DNA of 64,000 bases from Hyphococcus flavus (GTDB lineage Bacteria; Pseudomonadota; Alphaproteobacteria; Caulobacterales; Parvularculaceae). The notes beneath the pieces were generated by a model. The model saw only the letters and a list, made by a program, of their open reading frames with translations. It did no database searches and had not been told where the DNA came from. Made by a program: the position numbers and the translations under genes. The stretch is taken from NCBI RefSeq assembly GCF_028748065.1, contig NZ_CP118166.1:2991501-3055500 (forward strand). The letters are read 5' to 3'. Each line of letters starts with the position of its first letter. Position 1 is the first letter of the stretch. Below are positions 20,329-34,074 of this stretch, one piece after another.

Positions 20329-20667
20329 TCAGGCCGCGACGGGTACGCCTTTGCCTTCCAGAAAGCCGCGCAGTTCGCCCTGTTCAAACATTTCCCGGAC
20401 GATATCACAGCCGCCGACAAACTCGCCTTTCACATAAAGCTGCGGAATTGTCGGCCAATCCGAAAACGTCTTGATGCCCTGGCGCAGATCGTCAGATTCA
20501 AGGACGTTGGCGGAAGTATATTCGACGCCGAGATGATCGAGAATCTGAACAACGACAGAAGAGAATCCGCATTGCGGGAACTGCGGCGTGCCCTTCATGA
20601 ACAGCATCACCGGGCTGGCGTCGATTTTCGCTTTGATATCCGTGTGGGCCGCGTCGCTCATACTCAT
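20329..20667 (-). CDS. grxD: Monothiol glutaredoxin (Grx4/GrxD)
   Basis: A 112-residue CGFS glutaredoxin (C33-G-F-S36 in [12 protein letters not shown]) that binds a glutathione-ligated 2Fe-2S cluster and delivers or senses it together with BolA proteins. The [18 protein letters not shown] glutathione-binding region is intact. In many alphaproteobacteria grxD follows bolA directly; here the BolA module is fused to PurL 8 kb away. Confidence 0.95.
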
Positions 20668-24528: not shown

Positions 24529-26457
24529 CTAACCAGCCATGATCCCGTCAATACGCCGCTGGGCGATAGGGTGATAACCCGGACGCGCGCGTTCATAAAC
24601 GCTTTGCGCCCACTCGCGACGGCCATTGTCCACCAGCGCCTGATAGAGCCGGTAAATGAACTTGCCGCGCCCCACACGGATCAGGAATGCATCAAGCGGT
24701 TCGAACGCAGGTTCATAACTCGCCTTGATAGCTTTCAGATACCAGGCGTTGGCGATTTCCGCATTCTGTGAGGTTGAAAGGTCAAACTGGCCATCAAGCG
24801 CACTCATCTGATCAATCGAAATATCTTCCGGCAGATTGTTGATGAAATGCAGCCATTCATGAGTCGTCCATTCAGACGTTTGCAAGCCGCTCACGTCGCC
24901 GCCGCCAAGCCACGTATCCATCTGTGCCGACACTCGCTCGAACGCATCGGATTGCGGGTCTTCGATCGTGTCCGGGAAACCCGGTTCGAAGACCCATGCA
25001 TCGATTTCTTCTTTCGTTACGGCTTGCGGCTGATCCGCCCACAGATGATCTTCGAAATAAGAAAGAAAATCCGCCGTCGTAATGCTTTGAAAGGCATATT
25101 CGTCAAAATAGGAACGCAAGAACGCGTCGAACGCATCCCGGCCGAAGCGTTCTTCCAGAAATTTCAGGAAGAACATGCCGCCCGCATAAGACACCTGACT
25201 GAACGCATCATCGGGATGCGCGAGGTCGGCGGGCATTTTCAACGCTGTCAAGGCGGGGCGCTCGGCTTCTTGCACATCGCGCATCAGGCTGGCTTTATCG
25301 AGGTGCCGTTCCATCACGGCGCGCTCCTCACCATAAAGCGCTTCCATGGTGCGGTTTTCGACATAGCTCGTGAAGCCTTCATTGAGCCACGCATCACGCC
25401 AGGTGGCGTTGGTAACAAGATTGCCGGACCATGAGTGCGCAAGCTCATGCGCAACGACATTGGTCAGGCTCTTGTCGCCGGCGATCAGCGTTGGCGTCAT
25501 GAAGGAAAGGCGTGGGTTCTCCATCCCGCCAAACGGAAAGCTCGGCGGCAATACGATCAGGTCATAGCGGTCCCACAAGTATGGTCCGTAGAGCCGTTCC
25601 ATCGCCTCTTCCATCTTTGGCGTGTCTTCAAACTCTTCAGCGGAAGCCTGAAGAATGTACTCTTCCGCATAAACGCCGATGTGATCGTTGATCGCCTGGA
25701 ATTCGATGTCGCCGACAGCAAGCGCCAACAGATAAGACGGGATCGGCTGTGACATTCTGAAGGAATAATCGCCATCGCGCTCGCCAGTCGGGTCCTGACG
25801 CGCGCTCATGATCGCGATCAATTCAGGCGGCGTCGTAATCCGCGCGTCATAGGTGATGCGCACGGCGGGCGTGTCTTGCAACGGAACCATGGTGCGCGCC
25901 AGCAATGGCTGAAACTGCGTGAACAGGAATGGATGTTCGCCGCTGGCCGTCTGTTCCGGCGACAGCCACTGAATGCCTTCCGCTTCCGGGCTGGTGGCGT
26001 AGGTAACGCGGACCTTATCCGCGCCGTCAGGCAGCGCAATTTCAAGACGCGAGCCCATGATGTCGTCATCAGCGCCCAAATCGTAACTTGTTGTCACCCA
26101 GTCGCCATCCGCATGCGTCTCAATCATTTCGATGTTAAGATCGTTAGCGTCGAGCACGAGCGCCGATACATCATCCGACAGCCGTTCAAAATCGAGTTCC
26201 GCAGTACCGGTCAGCGTTTTCGTTTCAAAATCGACAGCCAGATCAAGGTCAACATGGGTAACGCGCACATCCTGATAGTTTGCATAAGTGAACGGGTCGC
26301 GGATATCAGCCGCCGTTGGCGCAGGCCAGCTCGCTTCCTGCTCAACGCCAGGCGCGTCCGAAGCGCTTGGTTCCGGTTCGCTGGCCTGATCATTTCTGGA
26401 ACATGCCAGAGCAAGAACGGATAACGAAACAACAGATGCGGCGGCGCTGATACGCAT
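24529..26457 (-). CDS. M1-family metallopeptidase, lipoprotein (LTA4 hydrolase type)
   Basis: A 642-residue zinc aminopeptidase anchored as a lipoprotein (lipobox LALAC, then a Ser/Glu/Pro spacer). The GGMEN exopeptidase motif and the HExxH-18-E zinc site (H337, E338, H341, E360 in VAHELAHSW and WLNEGF) are intact. Domain order follows leukotriene A4 hydrolase / cold-active aminopeptidases: saddle N-domain, catalytic domain, C-terminal helical domain (about 500-640). It probably trims peptides in the periplasm. It converges on the PON-like gene with only 5 bp between. Confidence 0.92.
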   Translation of the reverse strand: MRISAAASVVSLSVLALACSRNDQASEPEPSASDAPGVEQEASWPAPTAADIRDPFTYANYQDVRVTHVDLDLAVDFETKTLTGTAELDFERLSDDVSALVLDANDLNIEMIETHADGDWVTTSYDLGADDDIMGSRLEIALPDGADKVRVTYATSPEAEGIQWLSPEQTASGEHPFLFTQFQPLLARTMVPLQDTPAVRITYDARITTPPELIAIMSARQDPTGERDGDYSFRMSQPIPSYLLALAVGDIEFQAINDHIGVYAEEYILQASAEEFEDTPKMEEAMERLYGPYLWDRYDLIVLPPSFPFGGMENPRLSFMTPTLIAGDKSLTNVVAHELAHSWSGNLVTNATWRDAWLNEGFTSYVENRTMEALYGEERAVMERHLDKASLMRDVQEAERPALTALKMPADLAHPDDAFSQVSYAGGMFFLKFLEERFGRDAFDAFLRSYFDEYAFQSITTADFLSYFEDHLWADQPQAVTKEEIDAWVFEPGFPDTIEDPQSDAFERVSAQMDTWLGGGDVSGLQTSEWTTHEWLHFINNLPEDISIDQMSALDGQFDLSTSQNAEIANAWYLKAIKASYEPAFEPLDAFLIRVGRGKFIYRLYQALVDNGRREWAQSVYERARPGYHPIAQRRIDGIMAG

Positions 26458-26618
26458 GGAAATCCCCTTACGGTTTCAAATTCGCCGCACAGTAAAAGCG
26501 GCGCAACGGCTGAGCAAGGCGCTATCCATCTTCTTTCGTCGCTATTCGCGCCATTACTTCGCGTCTATAGTAAAGAAAAGCGCCGATTCTCGCGCCGAAA
26601 AGACTGAGGGAGCAAATT

Positions 26619-27965
26619 ATGGCCGGACCAGCAGGCGGCGCAGGCCCGCAATGGACCTCTCGTTTCGGTTTTCTGATGGCGGCCATCGGCTGCGCCATCG
26701 GTCTTGGCAATCTCTGGCGGTTTCCGTTTCAGGCCGGGCAGAACGGCGGCTCGGCTTTTGTGCTCATCTATCTCTTGTGCGTCTTTCTGATCGCCCTGCC
26801 GATTCTGATCGCCGAGATCGCTATTGGGCGGCACAAGGGATTATCCGCTGTCGGATCAACGCGCGAGCTGGCGAAAGAGTCGGGCCACTCGGCGTTATGG
26901 GGCGCGGTCGGTCTGATTGGCATTCTCGCAAGCTACATGGTGCTGACCACCTACAGCGTCGTCGCCGGTCAGATCCTGTCGTTTTCGCTGATGTCGTTTT
27001 CCGGCGTGTTCGCAAGTGAGAACACGGGCGAATTACCGCTTTACGCAGACAACACGCACGCAGTTTTATGGCACGGAGTTTTCATCGCCGCGACCATGGC
27101 GATTGTCGCGCGCGGCCTTAAAGACGGGGTCGAGCGCATGGTGACGATCCTGATGCCGGTATTCTTCATCATGCTGGCGGGGCTTGGCGCGTATTCACTA
27201 TCAACCGGTGCGGCGGGGCGCGCAATCGATTACCTCTTCGCGCCGCGTTTTGATCAGGTGACGGCGGAAACGGTGCTCGCCGCCCTTGGGCAGGCGTTTT
27301 ATTCGATCGCAGTCGGATCGGCGGCGATGATCACCTACGGCGCTTATCTCAACAAAAAGGAAAACATTTCGACCAGTAGCATCGTCATCGTCAGCGCCGA
27401 CACCATTGTCGCGCTCCTCGCCGGGCTGATGATTTTTCCGATTGTGTTTGCTTTCGCCCTCGACCCTGCGGCAGGCATGGGGCTGATTTTTGACGCCCTG
27501 CCGCAGATTTTCGCCGGCATGCCGGGCGGTCAGTTTGTCGGCGGGTTCTTTTTCTTCCTCGCTTTTATCGCCGCGCTGACGACATCGATTTCCATGCTGC
27601 TCATCACCGTGGTGTTCGTCGAAGAAGTATTCGGCATCAAGCGCATGCTCTCCGTCGCGATATTCGGCGCCCTCGCCTTCGGCCTTGGCGCGGTCAGCAT
27701 CATAACGCCAGGCATGGCGGAGAATATCGACTATGCGGCGGGCAGCATCTTCCTGCCGCTTAGCGCTTTGGGGAGCGCCCTTCTCGCCGGGTGGATCGCC
27801 CCGCGTGCAGTCATGCGCGGCGAAATCCACCACGCCAGCGAGCCCATGTTCCGCTTCTGGCGGTTTTTCGTGCGCTATCTCGCGCCAATCGCGGTGATTT
27901 TGATTTTATTGCTCGGGATTGATGCGCGGTTCGATTTTGGGTTGAACCGTATGCTGTCGGGCTGA
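26619..27965 (+). CDS. Sodium-dependent amino-acid transporter (NSS/SNF family)
   Basis: A 448-residue inner-membrane symporter of the LeuT/MhsT family with 11 predicted helices. TM1 carries the signature GFLMAAIGCAIGLGNLWRFP (sodium and substrate site), and TM6 the FYSIAVGSAAMITYGAYL unwound region. Substrate is likely a neutral or aromatic amino acid. Start preceded by GAGGGAGCAAATT. A REP-like hairpin follows 25 bp after the stop and may serve as terminator. Confidence 0.93.
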   Translation: MAGPAGGAGPQWTSRFGFLMAAIGCAIGLGNLWRFPFQAGQNGGSAFVLIYLLCVFLIALPILIAEIAIGRHKGLSAVGSTRELAKESGHSALWGAVGLIGILASYMVLTTYSVVAGQILSFSLMSFSGVFASENTGELPLYADNTHAVLWHGVFIAATMAIVARGLKDGVERMVTILMPVFFIMLAGLGAYSLSTGAAGRAIDYLFAPRFDQVTAETVLAALGQAFYSIAVGSAAMITYGAYLNKKENISTSSIVIVSADTIVALLAGLMIFPIVFAFALDPAAGMGLIFDALPQIFAGMPGGQFVGGFFFFLAFIAALTTSISMLLITVVFVEEVFGIKRMLSVAIFGALAFGLGAVSIITPGMAENIDYAAGSIFLPLSALGSALLAGWIAPRAVMRGEIHHASEPMFRFWRFFVRYLAPIAVILILLLGIDARFDFGLNRMLSG

Positions 27966-27982
27966 TGGATGACTGAATCCAA

Positions 27983-28013
27983 CCCCGCTCATCCCGGCGA
28001 AAGCCGGGATCCA
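27983..28013 (+). repeat. REP-like palindrome, left copy
   Basis: Core ATCCCGGC (27991-27998), loop GAAA, GCCGGGAT (28003-28010), within the unit CCCGCTCATCCCGGC... Such palindromes are dispersed in many alphaproteobacterial genomes. A nearly identical inverted copy lies at 28811-28842 on the other side of one orphan gene. At the 3' end of the symporter gene it can also act as a transcription end. Confidence 0.8.
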
Positions 28014-28095
28014 GATATTTGTAGATGCCTAAAACGGCGCATTGCGCTTTCACCTTAATGCACCCTACGCTTTAAGGTAATTAATCAAGCGCCAG

Positions 28096-28683
28096 ATGAA
28101 ATTACTTCGGGACAGTCCTATGCATATAATCATGTCCGTCATAGTAGACAATGCCAAAGAGTATATTGCCGGACGCAAGCCCGAAAACGGTGCAGGCTTG
28201 CTCGCACATCAACTATTACATGAAAAACCATTTCGGGCGCTCGTGCCATTGAACACTTCTCAAGAGCGGTCGGAGTCGCTGCGCCAAGGCGTGCTGACGG
28301 GATGGGATGATACTGTTCCAGCATTATTACGGGTGTTCAATGCAATATCGAACGGCAATGAAGAGTGTTTTGTTTGCGCTCAAATGTTGATTGCGACCGA
28401 AAAAGATTTCCCGGAAGGCGAGGATTTTGAAATAAAATCTCGTCCGTACCGATTTACAAAAGACGGCGTGACGTACGTTTCGGCGCCATTAGCGGACATG
28501 AATTCAGAACTGCTTTGTGGATTCGTGAAGTATGACATTGGATTCGATGTTTTACTAATATTGTTTGACAGGCCGTTTCAGCTTAGCTGGTTTGACTTAG
28601 ACAGACACCAAAGACAAGCGAGCATACTGGCGATCGCCTATGATACGTATGACGGCGAAAGTTTTATATATTCTGTAGCGTGA
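28096..28683 (+). CDS. Hypothetical protein between inverted REP-like repeats
   Basis: A 195-residue protein I do not recognise. An alternative ATG at 28120 would give 187 residues (MHIIMSVIVDNAKEY). Soluble, mixed alpha/beta, two Cys near residue 100 (ECFVCAQ) and an acidic, Tyr-rich C-terminus. Codon use is clearly more AT-rich than in the flanking symporter and purL genes. Bracketed by the two inverted REP-like palindromes and by about 110-130 bp of gene-free DNA on each side, which suggests a late insertion between two convergent genes. Confidence 0.6.
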   Translation: MKLLRDSPMHIIMSVIVDNAKEYIAGRKPENGAGLLAHQLLHEKPFRALVPLNTSQERSESLRQGVLTGWDDTVPALLRVFNAISNGNEECFVCAQMLIATEKDFPEGEDFEIKSRPYRFTKDGVTYVSAPLADMNSELLCGFVKYDIGFDVLLILFDRPFQLSWFDLDRHQRQASILAIAYDTYDGESFIYSVA

Positions 28684-28810
28684 GGCTGTGCCTTCTTTAA
28701 CCTGACTAAAAAAAATTGAAAAAAATTCTAAACCGTTGGGAGAAACATTCCCCTGTCCATGACCGTATCGCCCATAGTGCTTAGGAGATAAGTATCGAAA
28801 TCTCACAATT

Positions 28811-28842
28811 GGATCCCGGCCTTCGCCGGGATGAGCGGGTTG
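28811..28842 (-). repeat. REP-like palindrome, right inverted copy
   Basis: Core ATCCCGGC (28813-28820), loop CTTC, GCCGGGAT (28825-28832), followed by GAGCGGGTTGGG. Read on the minus strand it matches the left copy over about 30 bases, differing mainly in one loop base and one C. It begins 4 bp after the purL-bolA stop and may end that transcript. Confidence 0.8.
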
Positions 28843-28845
28843 GGC

Positions 28846-31602
28846 TCACTCTTTCGCCTCTGTCTCCAGCGCCAGGGCGTGCAATTCGCCGCCCATGCGG
28901 CCCTTTAATGCTCTGTAGACCAACTGATGCTGTTGCACGCGGGACTTGCCGTTGAAAGCAGATGAGGTGATGCGCGCGCGCCAGTGATCATTATCGCCGG
29001 CGAGGTCTTCGAGTTCGATTTCCGCGTCCGGCAGCGCGTCGATGATGAGCTTTTTGATGTCGTCGGCGGCCATGGGCATATTAGCGGCCTCCTTTCTGGT
29101 TTGGGCGTTCATGTAATCCGGCAGGGCGGCTTCAAAAATATCAGACAAATCAAGGAGTGAAATCGCATCCTTACCGTCAAGCGTGATGTCCGGCCCGCCG
29201 AAGCGGCCGATTTTCGAGGCCTGGACGCCGGCCATCGCAGCTTTCAAAAGCAGCGTGTCGGCGGCGGCGGGCGCGGCGGCGACAAGATAACGCCCCTGAT
29301 CCTCCCCGAACCAGAAGGCGGCCTTGCGCGCCTTCACCGGCGTTGTGAGGTTAAGGCCGCGGCCCGCGCTGAGCGCCATTTCGGCTGCAGCGACGATCAA
29401 GCCGCCATCGGCGACATCATGACAGGCAGTTACGAGCCCTTCATCGATCAGCTTACGGATGAGTTCGCCGGTCTTGCGCTCGCCTTCCAAATCAACTGGC
29501 GGCGGCGCGCCATCGGCAATATCGAAGAGATCACGCAAATATAAAGACTGCCCCAGATGTCCGCGCGTAACACCAATGGCGAGCAGTTCCTCACCTGCTT
29601 CGGCGCCGCCAACGCGCACCGCTTTCGTTACATCCTCCAGAACACCGACGCCGCCAATGGCCGGGGTCGGCGGGATCGCCTGGCTGTTGGTTTCATTATA
29701 AAGCGAGACATTGCCTGAAATAACGGGATAGTTCAGCGCCTCGCACGCCTCGGCGATGCCCTCTATCGCGCCAACGAACTGCGCCATGATTTCCGGTCGT
29801 TCCGGATTGCCGAAATTGAGACAGTTGGTGATGGCGAGCGGCGATGCGCCCGTTGCGCAAATATTGCGCCAGGTTTCGGCCACCGCCTGCTTGCCGCCTT
29901 CATGGGGGTCGGCTTTCACATAGCGCGGCGTTACATCGGTTGAGACGGCGAGCCCGCGTTTCGTGCCGTGCACGCGAACGAGTGATGCATCGCCGCCGGG
30001 ATGGATCACCGTGTCGCCCATCACCGTGTGATCGTATTGCGACCAGATCCAGCTCCTAGAGCAAAGGTCTGGCGTTCCCATGAGCCGCGCCAGAGCCGTC
30101 AGCATGGTGTCGCCGCCGGGCGCGTCGGCCAGCGATAACTGTTCCTCGCGCTGTTCGACTTCCGCGGATTCTATCATCCCGCCGGTGGCGAGATTACGCG
30201 CGGCTTCCTCGAACCCGTCAAAGCTGACGCCTTCGGGTTTTGACCGCACATAAATGCGCGCCTCGCCTTCGCTGACGCTCATACCGACGCCGTCGATCAG
30301 CGCCGCATCGGAGAGGCGGTCGGAAACAAGCGTTTCGGCGATCGCGCGCATCTCGGCTTCAGACTTGCCGGATGCTTTTAATATTGCTTCCGCCTCACGA
30401 TAGGTGACGCTTGGGTCAGCGAGGGGCGCTGGTTTTTCAAGCGTTGCATACGGCCGGTCATAATTTGGCGCATCGTCCGCAAGCGGCGGCACCGGCATAT
30501 CGGCGACAGTCTCGCCCTGATGCTTGATAACGAGCCTTCCGGTATCGGTGGTGACGCCGATGACCGCGAAATCGACGCCCCATTTTTCGAAGATCGCGCG
30601 CGCCGCATCCTCGCGCCCGGGTTTGAGCACCATCAGCATGCGCTCCTGAGACTCAGACAACATCATCTCATAGGCGGTCATGTTCTCTTCACGCTGGGGC
30701 ACATAATCGAGATCAAGCTCGAACCCGCCTTCTCCCAACATGGCTCCTTTCGCCGCCATTTCAACGGACGAAGACGTAAGGCCAGCCGCGCCCATATCCT
30801 GAATAGCGACGATGGCGTCAGACGCCATCAGCTCAAGGCAGGCCTCAAGCAGGAGTTTCTCCGTAAACGGATCGCCGACCTGCACCGTGGGACGTTTTTC
30901 TTCAGAGGCGTCATCAAACTCGGCCGAAGCCATGGTGGCGCCGTGTATGCCGTCACGGCCCGTCTTCGAGCCGACATAGACCACCGGGTTCCCGGCGCCG
31001 CGCGCGGCGGAATAAAAAATCTTCGCTTTTTCCGCGACGCCCACGGTCATAGCGTTGACGAGAATATTGCCATTATAGCCCGCGTCGAAATTCGTCTCGC
31101 CGCCCACAGTCGGCACGCCCATGCAGTTGCCGTAACCGCCGATGCCGCCGACCACGCCAGCAACGAGGTGGCGGGTTTTCGGATGCGCCATCTCGCCAAA
31201 GCGCAGCGCATTCATATTGGCAACCGGGCGCGCGCCCATGGTGAACACGTCGCGCATGATGCCGCCAACGCCCGTAGCTGCCCCTTGATAAGGTTCAATG
31301 AATGACGGGTGATTATGGCTTTCCATTTTGAAGACGGCGACTAGCGGCACGCCGTCATTGTCAGTTCCGATGTCGATGACCCCGGCGTTCTCGCCTGGCC
31401 CCTGCACCACCCAAGGGGCGGAAGTCGGCAACTTCTTCAGATGCCGCCGCGAGGATTTGTAGGAGCAATGCTCCGACCACATGACCGAAAAGACACCAAG
31501 TTCCACGAGATTTGGCTCGCGCCCCATATGGGTCTTGATTCGTTCATATTCTTCAGGATTGAGGCCGTGTTCGGCGACGATTTCAGGCGTGATGGCGGTC
31601 AT
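28846..31602 (-). CDS. purL: PurL (FGAM synthase II) fused in frame to BolA
   Basis: A 918-residue protein. Residues 1-841 are formylglycinamidine ribonucleotide synthetase, large subunit of the PurLQS type (step 4 of purine synthesis): [51 protein letters not shown] and [11 protein letters not shown] are intact. Compared with the usual 740-residue PurL there is an additional segment of about 85-100 residues at roughly 397-498. Residues 842-918 are a complete BolA domain ([22 protein letters not shown]), normally a separate gene just downstream of purL. No stop codon separates them. A full Shine-Dalgarno precedes Met842, so free BolA may also be made. PurS and PurQ are not in the window. Confidence 0.88.
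29077..29094 (-). promoter_or_regulatory. bolA: Internal Shine-Dalgarno and start codon for a BolA-only product
   Basis: On the minus strand AAGGAGG (29094-29088) stands 8 nt before ATG (29079-29077), inside the PurL-BolA frame. The ATG opens [12 protein letters not shown], the natural N-terminus of a 77-residue BolA (28846-29079). BolA partners the CGFS glutaredoxin (grxD at 20329). The site suggests that bolA was, and perhaps still is, translated independently. Confidence 0.7.
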
Positions 31603-31731
31603 GGGAATCCGTAAATGGTAAACTCGCCGCTTCCTTAGGACGCTTGGTCTTTCCGCGCAAATAGGACACGCGACTTAGCGGAACCTTTTTAAGCGCCAGG
31701 GGTTTAAGGGGGAGCGCTCAGGGAGCTGCCT

Positions 31732-32250
31732 ATGCGAAAAATGTTCGTCATCGCCATCGCCGCCGCCATCCTCGCCGCCTGCGGCGAAGTCCAGCGGTCC
31801 GAAGAAGCCAGCACGACAGTTTCAGGAGAAGAAGGCTCGACCGACTCTCCCGAACGACATGTCGCCCGCAGCGTCGAAACCGAACCCGGCGACTGGCATT
31901 ATAAAGAATCAGACGGCTATCCCTGGGCCGGCTTTGGCCCGCCCGCCAGTGAGGCGGTGTTCATCATCAGTTGCAGGCGAGGTCAGGTTTTTTTCAGTCA
32001 CGCTATGGAAGTTTCCGGTGACGACCAACGCATGACCATAGAGGCCGATGGCGATACCGAAACGATCGAGCTTCGTCCCATTGGCGGTCCTGTCCCAATG
32101 GCCGAAGGGGCACTGCCCGCGAACAGCATGTTCATTGACACGCTCCTCAATACGGAAAGCGCATTCACGGTTTCGGTCAAAGGTCGGCGTTTCTCACTGC
32201 GGCCTGCGCTTGAATACCGGCGCGTGATCCGCGAATGCCGGGCGGGTTAG
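31732..32250 (+). CDS. Putative lipoprotein, 172 aa
   Basis: Lipoprotein signal with lipobox LAAC (Cys17), then a Ser/Thr/Glu-rich disordered spacer. The mature domain (about 55-170) has DWHYKESDGYPWAGFGPPASE and two Cys (ISCRRGQ near 83, RECRAG at the end) that could form a disulfide. No family recognised. Divergent from purL with 129 bp between starts. Confidence 0.65.
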   Translation: MRKMFVIAIAAAILAACGEVQRSEEASTTVSGEEGSTDSPERHVARSVETEPGDWHYKESDGYPWAGFGPPASEAVFIISCRRGQVFFSHAMEVSGDDQRMTIEADGDTETIELRPIGGPVPMAEGALPANSMFIDTLLNTESAFTVSVKGRRFSLRPALEYRRVIRECRAG

Positions 32251-32257
32251 CGCGCAC

Positions 32258-32842
32258 TTACTGTGCTCTACTGATCAGGTCACTACATTCTGATGGGGAC
32301 GCCCCTTCGCTACAAACGATTTCTCGCTGCATCATGAGAGGGGGATTAAAAATCGTATTCAACGCTATGATTACAATTACTAAAGCTGCACCGCAAAAAG
32401 AGCCAAAATAGAACTCGCGACGCCGTTGAAAATGTGCGGTGAGAACTGATTTGGCGTTTTTTGAATCATTCGATGACAGCTGCGCATCCGGCGGAGCCAT
32501 GGCAGCCTTCTCGAGTTCGTAGCCATATCGCGGCGTCGTCTTTATTATCTGATAAGGTCGGCTAATATCTCCCAACGCCCGGCGAAGCTTGGAAATCGCC
32601 TGAGTTAACGCTTCGTCCGAACCATCAGCGCCCCAAATCTCATCAAGCAGGGTGTCTCGTGACACAGGTCCTTCCGTTGCAGCGAGGCGCTCAAGCAACT
32701 CCGCAATTTTTGGTTCCAGCGCCAACTCCTTTCCCCCAGTATGCACGATGCGCGATGCAGGATCGTAAAGCGCATTGCCAAAGCGAATGGGGGCGCCGTC
32801 AGTTAAGTTCTCAGTGCTATCCAGCGGTTGTATTAGCGACAT
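32258..32842 (-). CDS. ToxR/CadC-like winged-helix regulator with one membrane segment
   Basis: A 194-residue one-component regulator. N-terminal OmpR-type winged helix (about 17-110) with EALTQAISKLRRALGD and the wing IIKTTPRYGYELE, a polar linker, one transmembrane helix (about 145-165, SFCGAALVIVIIALNTIF) and a short periplasmic tail of about 29 residues with two Cys. The ATG at 32842 fits the domain; a TTG at 32893 would add 17 residues. It is divergent from a serine hydrolase gene (89 bp shared control region), the likely target. Confidence 0.85.
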   Translation of the reverse strand: MSLIQPLDSTENLTDGAPIRFGNALYDPASRIVHTGGKELALEPKIAELLERLAATEGPVSRDTLLDEIWGADGSDEALTQAISKLRRALGDISRPYQIIKTTPRYGYELEKAAMAPPDAQLSSNDSKNAKSVLTAHFQRRREFYFGSFCGAALVIVIIALNTIFNPPLMMQREIVCSEGASPSECSDLISRAQ

Positions 32843-32931
32843 GAAACGTCTCGAAATGTTTCCTTCAGGCTTTCTACTACGAAAAGCAGGCAATTTAGGG
32901 TGAGTATAACCAGAAACAGGAATTTACCCGA

Positions 32932-34074
32932 ATGCCAGGCATCTTCAACAACGCCCTACAACAGTTCACCGCGAAGAATTCTCGCAAAGCCGCAATAACT
33001 GCAATCCTGCTAGCTTCATTAGCTCCCGTCGCAGCCCAACAACTCCATCCGCCCTCGCCCAATCAGGTCTCAGACCGATTTGAGAGAGCTCAATCCCGTC
33101 TTGAGGACATGGGGTTCACGGGAATCGTCGCTGTGTCGGTGAATGGCCGCCCGCCTCTCTATGCCGGATTTGGTGACAACGCCGCTGCAGACGGCCGCCC
33201 TGACAAAGACACGCTTGTGGATATCGGTTCAATCACAAAAACCATAACCGGCGCTGCAGCGATGAAGCTTGTTGATCAAGGCAAACTCTCAATGGCGGAT
33301 CGGCTAAGTGATTTCTTTCCGAATACCCCGGAAGACAAAGCGCGGATAACAATACACCAGCTTCTAACCCATTCTGCCGGTTTTACTGATGCTGTGGGAG
33401 ATGATCTGGAATACCTCTCAAAGGGAGACTTCATGATTCGCGCAATGGATTCCAGCCTGCTTTTTGAACCCGGCTCGGGTTACGCCTACTCCAATGTCGG
33501 CTTTTCGCTAGCTGCTGCGATTATCGAAAAGGTGGCGGGAAAATCCTATGCTGATTTTCTGAAAGACGATGTCCTGCGGCAAGCTGGTATTACAAAAATT
33601 GGTTACGATAAGACGTTTGACGCCAGGCGCTCGCTTCTCACTCAAGACGGTAGAGCGATTGACGATGCTAGTTGGGGCGGGTCGGCGCATTGGGCTTTGT
33701 TCGGCAATGGCGGACTTGTCGCTACAGCAAAAGACATGATCCGTTTCCGCGAAGCTTTTGTTAGCGGGAAAGTCGTTTCAAATGCCGGTATTGAATTGGC
33801 GCAAGCCCCGCTGGTCCGGGAGGGCGAAGGCGTCCCCAGCCATTATGGATACGGGCTTGTGATACAGGACGAGCCACTGCTGGGTCGCACTTACTGGCAC
33901 AATGGCGGTAACCCGCATTTCACGTCGAATTTGACCGATTATTCTGACTACGGCCTGGTTATATTCACCGCGTCCAACAACCCGGACATCAACGCAGACA
34001 TTGCTGCGATGGTTATTACGGAAATGTTGTTTGATGTAAAAATATTTCAGATGGATGCAACCGATAGTAACTAA
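32932..34074 (+). CDS. Exported serine hydrolase, beta-lactamase class C fold
   Basis: A 380-residue protein with a signal peptide (cleavage near PVAAQQ). Penicillin-binding-type motifs: SITK (S-x-x-K, catalytic Ser), YSN in YAYSNVGFSLAAA and HNGG (K/H-x-G) in YWHNGGNPHFTS. These proteins are esterases, D-amino peptidases or beta-lactamases; true beta-lactamase activity should not be assumed. Divergent from the ToxR-like regulator. Confidence 0.85.
   Translation: MPGIFNNALQQFTAKNSRKAAITAILLASLAPVAAQQLHPPSPNQVSDRFERAQSRLEDMGFTGIVAVSVNGRPPLYAGFGDNAAADGRPDKDTLVDIGSITKTITGAAAMKLVDQGKLSMADRLSDFFPNTPEDKARITIHQLLTHSAGFTDAVGDDLEYLSKGDFMIRAMDSSLLFEPGSGYAYSNVGFSLAAAIIEKVAGKSYADFLKDDVLRQAGITKIGYDKTFDARRSLLTQDGRAIDDASWGGSAHWALFGNGGLVATAKDMIRFREAFVSGKVVSNAGIELAQAPLVREGEGVPSHYGYGLVIQDEPLLGRTYWHNGGNPHFTSNLTDYSDYGLVIFTASNNPDINADIAAMVITEMLFDVKIFQMDATDSN

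Follow-up and report, generated by a model that had tools for sequence, protein, structure and literature searches.

In Hyphococcus flavus the genes purL and bolA are joined in one open reading frame, inside which the ribosome-binding site and the start codon of bolA have been retained. We propose, with a probability of roughly 85%, that bolA persists there as a nested cistron and that one gene gives two proteins, a 97.5-kDa PurL-BolA fusion and a free 8.6-kDa BolA of the YrbA type. Conservation of the frame and of the start was observed across the family Parvularculaceae, and it is from this conservation that we infer the two products. As judged from sequence comparison, two constraints meet at the joint, one keeping the fused frame and the other keeping the buried bolA start. 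An earlier sequence-only reading of the locus had proposed that a purL stop codon was lost in a real fusion and that both the fusion and free BolA may be produced; the first proposal was supported by the open joints of the family genomes, and the second, which we consider probable, by the conserved frame together with the nested start.

The fused gene and its neighbourhood

The window, i.e. the whole stretch of DNA that we analysed, is 64,000 nucleotides long and belongs to a genome assembled as a single contig of 3.47 Mb; its features are collected in Table 1.

Table 1. Features of the purL-bolA locus, in window positions
Feature	Position	Strand	Remarks
purL-bolA fused reading frame	28846..31602	-	918 aa; calculated mass 97.5 kDa
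PurL part, residues 1-831	29110..31602	-	FGAM synthase subunit PurL; ends around LPDYM motif
Linker, residues 832-841	29080..29109	-	length and sequence variable across Parvularculaceae
AAGGAGG, nested bolA Shine-Dalgarno sequence	29088..29094	-	within linker codons
ATG (Met842), nested bolA start codon	29077..29079	-	invariant, 55/55 family genomes
BolA part, residues 842-918	28849..29079	-	YrbA/BolA_H type; 77 aa, calculated mass 8.6 kDa as a separate protein
grxD, Grx4-family CGFS monothiol glutaredoxin	20329..20667	-	~8.2 kb downstream of bolA

The frame of 918 codons has no internal stop and, as the sequence-only reading had described it, runs from PurL into a complete BolA, which was borne out by the open reading frame itself and by the scores of both parts. 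The PurL part scored 995.5 bits against the NCBIfam equivalog NF002290 (cut-off 648) and 909.4 against TIGR01736 (cut-off 525.75), and its fold was recognised by Foldseek, the top match being 3viu (PurL of T. thermophilus, E 2.3e-64) with a TM-score of 0.89 by target length and 0.69 by query length. The BolA domain PF01722 was found with 49.2 bits (Pfam gathering score 25.7) in a match limited to residues 869-917 and profile positions 26-74 of 76. By sequence, the best solved relative of the BolA part was S. meliloti YrbA (5nfk, E 1e-23), with which residues 844-918, from the third residue to the end, could be aligned. In PMC7538681, His32 and His67 of YrbA are described as metal-binding and Phe42 as invariant. 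Counting the nested methionine as 1, these correspond to H873, H908 and F883 of the fusion, which were invariant in all 29 aligned fusions (chosen from the 55 family genomes described below); the histidine of the [H/C] loop and the invariant C-terminal histidine of BolA_H/YrbA proteins are represented by H873 and H908. The window genome has one other BolA match, to a distantly related paralog (40% across 48 residues).

An AlphaFold2 model computed with 29 sequences of the family reached a mean pLDDT of 75.2 and a pTM of 0.73. In it the BolA part was predicted as helix-strand-strand-helix-strand, and residues 835-842, at the linker, fell below a pLDDT of 50; some stretches of PurL, e.g. 199-246, were also poorly predicted. 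In an Rfam scan of window positions 26000-33000, no RNA family reached its gathering threshold. We also noticed an 18-nt hairpin-like unit, TCCCGGCGAARGCCGGGA, occurring twice 3' of bolA (window positions 27992-28009 and 28814-28831; two matches with up to 2 mismatches in the window, 0.01 expected). Genome-wide there were 13 copies and none of the reversed-pattern control, so it is an interspersed element.

A CGFS glutaredoxin is the usual partner of BolA, and grxD was found at the distance of about 8 kb given by the sequence-only reading. In a motif search of loci with at least 2.5 kb of downstream sequence, a CGFS motif lay within 2.5 kb after bolA in 37 of 42 unfused loci (from L095-L140, a set fetched with the fused query) versus 1 of 29 family loci (from L061-L094). 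The sequence-only reading had also suggested that the fusion may link purine synthesis to an iron-sulfur sensor module. One concrete form of such a link, delivery of an iron-sulfur cluster to PurF, looks unlikely. The PurF of the window genome (L211) is close to the B. subtilis type, but when it was aligned to 1ao0, two of the four positions that we take to be the cluster cysteines were occupied by other residues, one of them by Asp, and PurF is for this reason a poor cluster target.

Conservation of the joint

We searched 62 genomes of Parvularculaceae and could read the joint in 55 of them, representing eight genera (26 from the genus of the window genome, then 10, 2, 2, 7, 6, 1 and 1 from g2, g3, g4, g6, g7, g8 and g9). 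It was open, with no stop, in all 55, although these genomes are related and the counts across them are not independent. The BolA part itself was incomplete in three (G001 and G007 end with the available sequence and G062 meets masked bases). The joint was unreadable in seven genomes: G010, G024, G031, G064, G066, G073 and G085. In G031, the sole g5 genome and 98% complete, PurL gave no match, which may be a gap or a real loss. A search with the BolA part gave a match in 59 of the 62 genomes, in some of them just the distant paralog, and none of the 55 contained a second match to the fused BolA at 1e-12. Among named loci of the family the fusion was present in 34 of 34, mostly from the same species as among the 55. 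The nearest named relatives of the window genome are Parvularculaceae (Hyphococcus, Marinicaulis), and the joint was also open in Marinicaulis flavus, Amphiplicatus metriothermophilus, Aquisalinus flavus, Parvularcula oceani and P. dongshanensis.

The protein collection contained 195 proteins of suitable length matching the BolA part, and the best 120 of these carried BolA alongside AIRS domains. Most names among the matches listed were simply PurL, so that a free BolA would escape annotation. One source used 'FGAM synthase-like enzyme/stress-induced morphogen', so automatic annotation does pick up this pair of domains.

The linker varied from 10 to 29 residues. On a tree of the 47 of the 55 sequences with most of PurL, parsimony required at least 16 changes of linker length, all of them by whole codons, and no linker contained a stop, though a single substitution would turn 224 of the 762 linker codons into one.

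The nested ATG was kept in 55 of 55 genomes, and a Shine-Dalgarno (SD) core of at least 4 nt stood at -15 to -5 in 54. In the window genome AAGGAGG is followed by an 8-nt spacer and the ATG of BolA, as had been noted from the sequence, and the comparison indicates that this is not a chance occurrence: of the 1287 other in-frame Met codons that the family genes have before the joint, 145 are preceded by such a core in the same place, and this control also counts any genuine PurL start. An in-frame internal start with a conserved ribosome-binding site, one mark of a gene with two proteins, is present here. G063 (L147) is the only genome of the 55 without a core before the nested ATG, and it may have lost the separate BolA product. 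The mean energy of pairing with the anti-SD sequence was -8.2 kcal/mol at the nested ATG versus -2.2 kcal/mol at the other Met codons; this sequence was assumed, since our 16S search of the window genome found none. In 42 of the 55 genes, a few of which are fragments with few Met codons, no other in-frame Met upstream equalled the nested start. Measured from its GGA, the core stood 10, 12, 13 or 15 nt before the ATG.

Because Lys-Glu codons resemble SD sequences, we recoded six linker codons at random with the codon usage of each genus (2000 sets). The genus-averaged SD energy was -7.63 versus -4.33 (sd 0.51) for this synonymous null, of which the best set reached -6.53. At 0.05 the test was passed by all six genera with at least two genomes and not by the two single-genome genera; among single genomes p was below 0.05 in 5 of 55 and 0.5 or more in four (G006, G028, G063 and G080). 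The Lys-Glu pair was written AAGGAG in 25 of 30 cases in linkers versus 17 of 71 elsewhere. Of the cores, 50 lay in codon phase 2 and four, with different residues, in phase 0. Identity at fourfold sites between the window genome and 14 genomes of other genera was 0.06 to 0.15 above the expectation from base composition (e.g. 0.456 vs 0.372 and 0.336 vs 0.263), suggesting that silent sites approach saturation without quite reaching it. The mRNA from -30 to +20 was more open at the nested start (mean folding energy -8.4 kcal/mol, GC 0.59) than at the other Met codons (-14.2 kcal/mol, GC 0.61), and this was so in each of the eight genera. At the bolA starts of unfused relatives (28 class-sample genomes) the SD energy was -6.36 and the folding energy -10.34, and 23 of the 28 had an SD core.

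In a sample of 385 genomes of the class, 127 matched at 1e-40, the window genome among them. In 69 of the others, all outside the family, PurL and BolA stood in one frame with at least one stop in each match, and the remaining 57 matches covered PurL alone or ended at the first BolA residues. In a sample of 398 genomes of the order, no stop-free PurL-BolA was found outside the family among the matches listed. The sequence-only reading had named separate genes in all relatives among the observations that would speak against it; separate genes were indeed found at every joint examined outside the family, whereas every readable joint within it was fused. The simplest history would be a single stop loss in the ancestor of the family. 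Three candidates for independent fusion were rejected: G046 (f4), which first seemed fused (an open frame of 857 with both parts), has two in-frame stops preceding bolA, and in G338 and G219 the open frames of 464 and 604 aa before bolA do not contain PurL and, judged by eye, look like chance open frames in GC-rich DNA.

When class-sample genomes were chosen by PurL alone (best-scoring loci), purL and bolA were adjacent in 27 of 29, and the 27 unfused pairs showed no preference of frame (10/9/8). Adjacent unfused pairs fetched with a query across the joint were in frame in 50 of 56 cases (59 loci were taken, of which two without a recognised start and one non-adjacent were dropped), but this set is mostly biased by the query used to fetch it. 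Stop-codon readthrough supposes a stop between the two parts, and the joints of the 55 family genomes have none; as a wider phenomenon it was also rejected, the unbiased pairs giving no signal.

Alternative explanations and proposed mechanism

A one-base sequencing or assembly error could open a frame, and such an error at the joint had been put forward as the alternative to fusion. Since the same open joint recurs in every readable family genome, and in the named isolates as well, we regard this explanation as excluded for practical purposes. The SD-like string sits at a domain boundary and might make ribosomes pause there, giving PurL time to fold ahead of BolA synthesis; however, pausing depends neither on a constant spacing to an ATG nor on an invariant Met or open mRNA, and all three were seen, which makes this a very improbable role. 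The fusion could also be the sole product, with the SD-like string and the ATG being leftovers or reflecting a preference for a Lys/Glu-rich linker. The Lys-Glu dipeptide does ease SD-like strings, the synonymous null already averages -4.3 kcal/mol, single genomes rarely beat it, and BolA also begins with M-P-M or M-A-M in most unfused relatives inspected. Against this, the null was beaten (p < 0.05) in each of the better-sampled genera, the SD survives in another codon phase with other residues, its spacing to the ATG is held while the linker length varies, and the mRNA is more open than at other Met codons in all eight genera; we therefore consider a fusion without free BolA quite unlikely.

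The converse possibility is that the useful product is free BolA and that the tail on PurL is a tolerated accident, with which the strong conservation of the nested start and a tether without known function would agree. One stop or frameshift within the linker would, however, be enough to separate the products again, and none was found in the 55 genomes; all the length changes preserved the frame, and the adjacent unfused pairs have no frame preference. We find this explanation unlikely, though less so than a fusion without free BolA. Since its frame has been kept too, the fused protein probably serves some purpose and did not merely persist by accident.

In the mechanism that we propose, with both the fusion and free BolA as products, the purL stop codon would have been lost in the ancestor of Parvularculaceae with bolA following in the same frame, so that ribosomes translating purL would continue into bolA and tether PurL to BolA via a flexible linker. 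The bolA ribosome-binding site and ATG would have been retained in the linker by selection, and because these nucleotide signals are conserved, other ribosomes may be expected to initiate at the nested ATG and make the free YrbA-type BolA of 77 residues. Free BolA would presumably pair with GrxD over a [2Fe-2S] cluster, like BolA_H proteins elsewhere; a CGFS glutaredoxin gene is present in the window genome, and the copy of BolA borne by PurL retains the same ligand histidines. As for the benefit of the tether, the simplest guess is that the FGAM synthase complex would carry a docking domain for GrxD in a fixed 1:1 link. More tentatively, and with doubts outweighing our confidence, one may imagine a family-wide nested cistron in which selection holds both the fused PurL-BolA and the independent bolA start, each PurL bears a GrxD-docking Fe-S/metal domain coupling purine synthesis to iron status, and free BolA comes from the same message, with the buried ribosome-binding site fixing the ratio.

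Comparison with known systems

Our literature search, with thin coverage of subscription journals, did not find reports of a PurL-BolA fusion among the titles listed. In comparison with purL, bolA (yrbA) and grxD of other alphaproteobacteria, the genes and the purL-bolA order are the same; in contrast to those separate genes, the family has lost the purL stop and grxD is no longer close. A chimera of SufE1 and BolA occurs in plants. Solved structures matched by the BolA part included 4pui, a 'SufE-like protein, chloroplastic', and Grx-BolA chimeric proteins of Methylococcales are described in PMC7538681. The fusion resembles these natural chimeras in that a BolA domain is joined to another protein, but here it is joined to the purine-synthesis enzyme PurL, which is not a known Fe-S partner, and a nested start is retained. 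S. meliloti YrbA (5nfk), unlike the fused BolA, is a stand-alone protein, and the function of BolA in S. meliloti is termed unknown in the abstract of PMC7538681. By linking BolA physically to a single defined enzyme, the fusion opens the purL-bolA-grxD neighbourhood to testing.

The locus offers a clear natural case of two merged cistrons whose inner start signal is conserved across eight genera, and suggests that genes can fuse without loss of the free protein. The closest precedent in kind appears to be Cas11b of Haloferax, where, according to PMC11899642, internal in-frame translation of cas8b yields the C-terminal protein. As in that system, one gene would here give two proteins, an internal Met is accompanied by a Shine-Dalgarno-like sequence, and the small product would be C-terminal. 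The locus described here differs in that its small product would come from a once-separate gene, absorbed by stop loss behind a metabolic enzyme, as deduced from its sequence.
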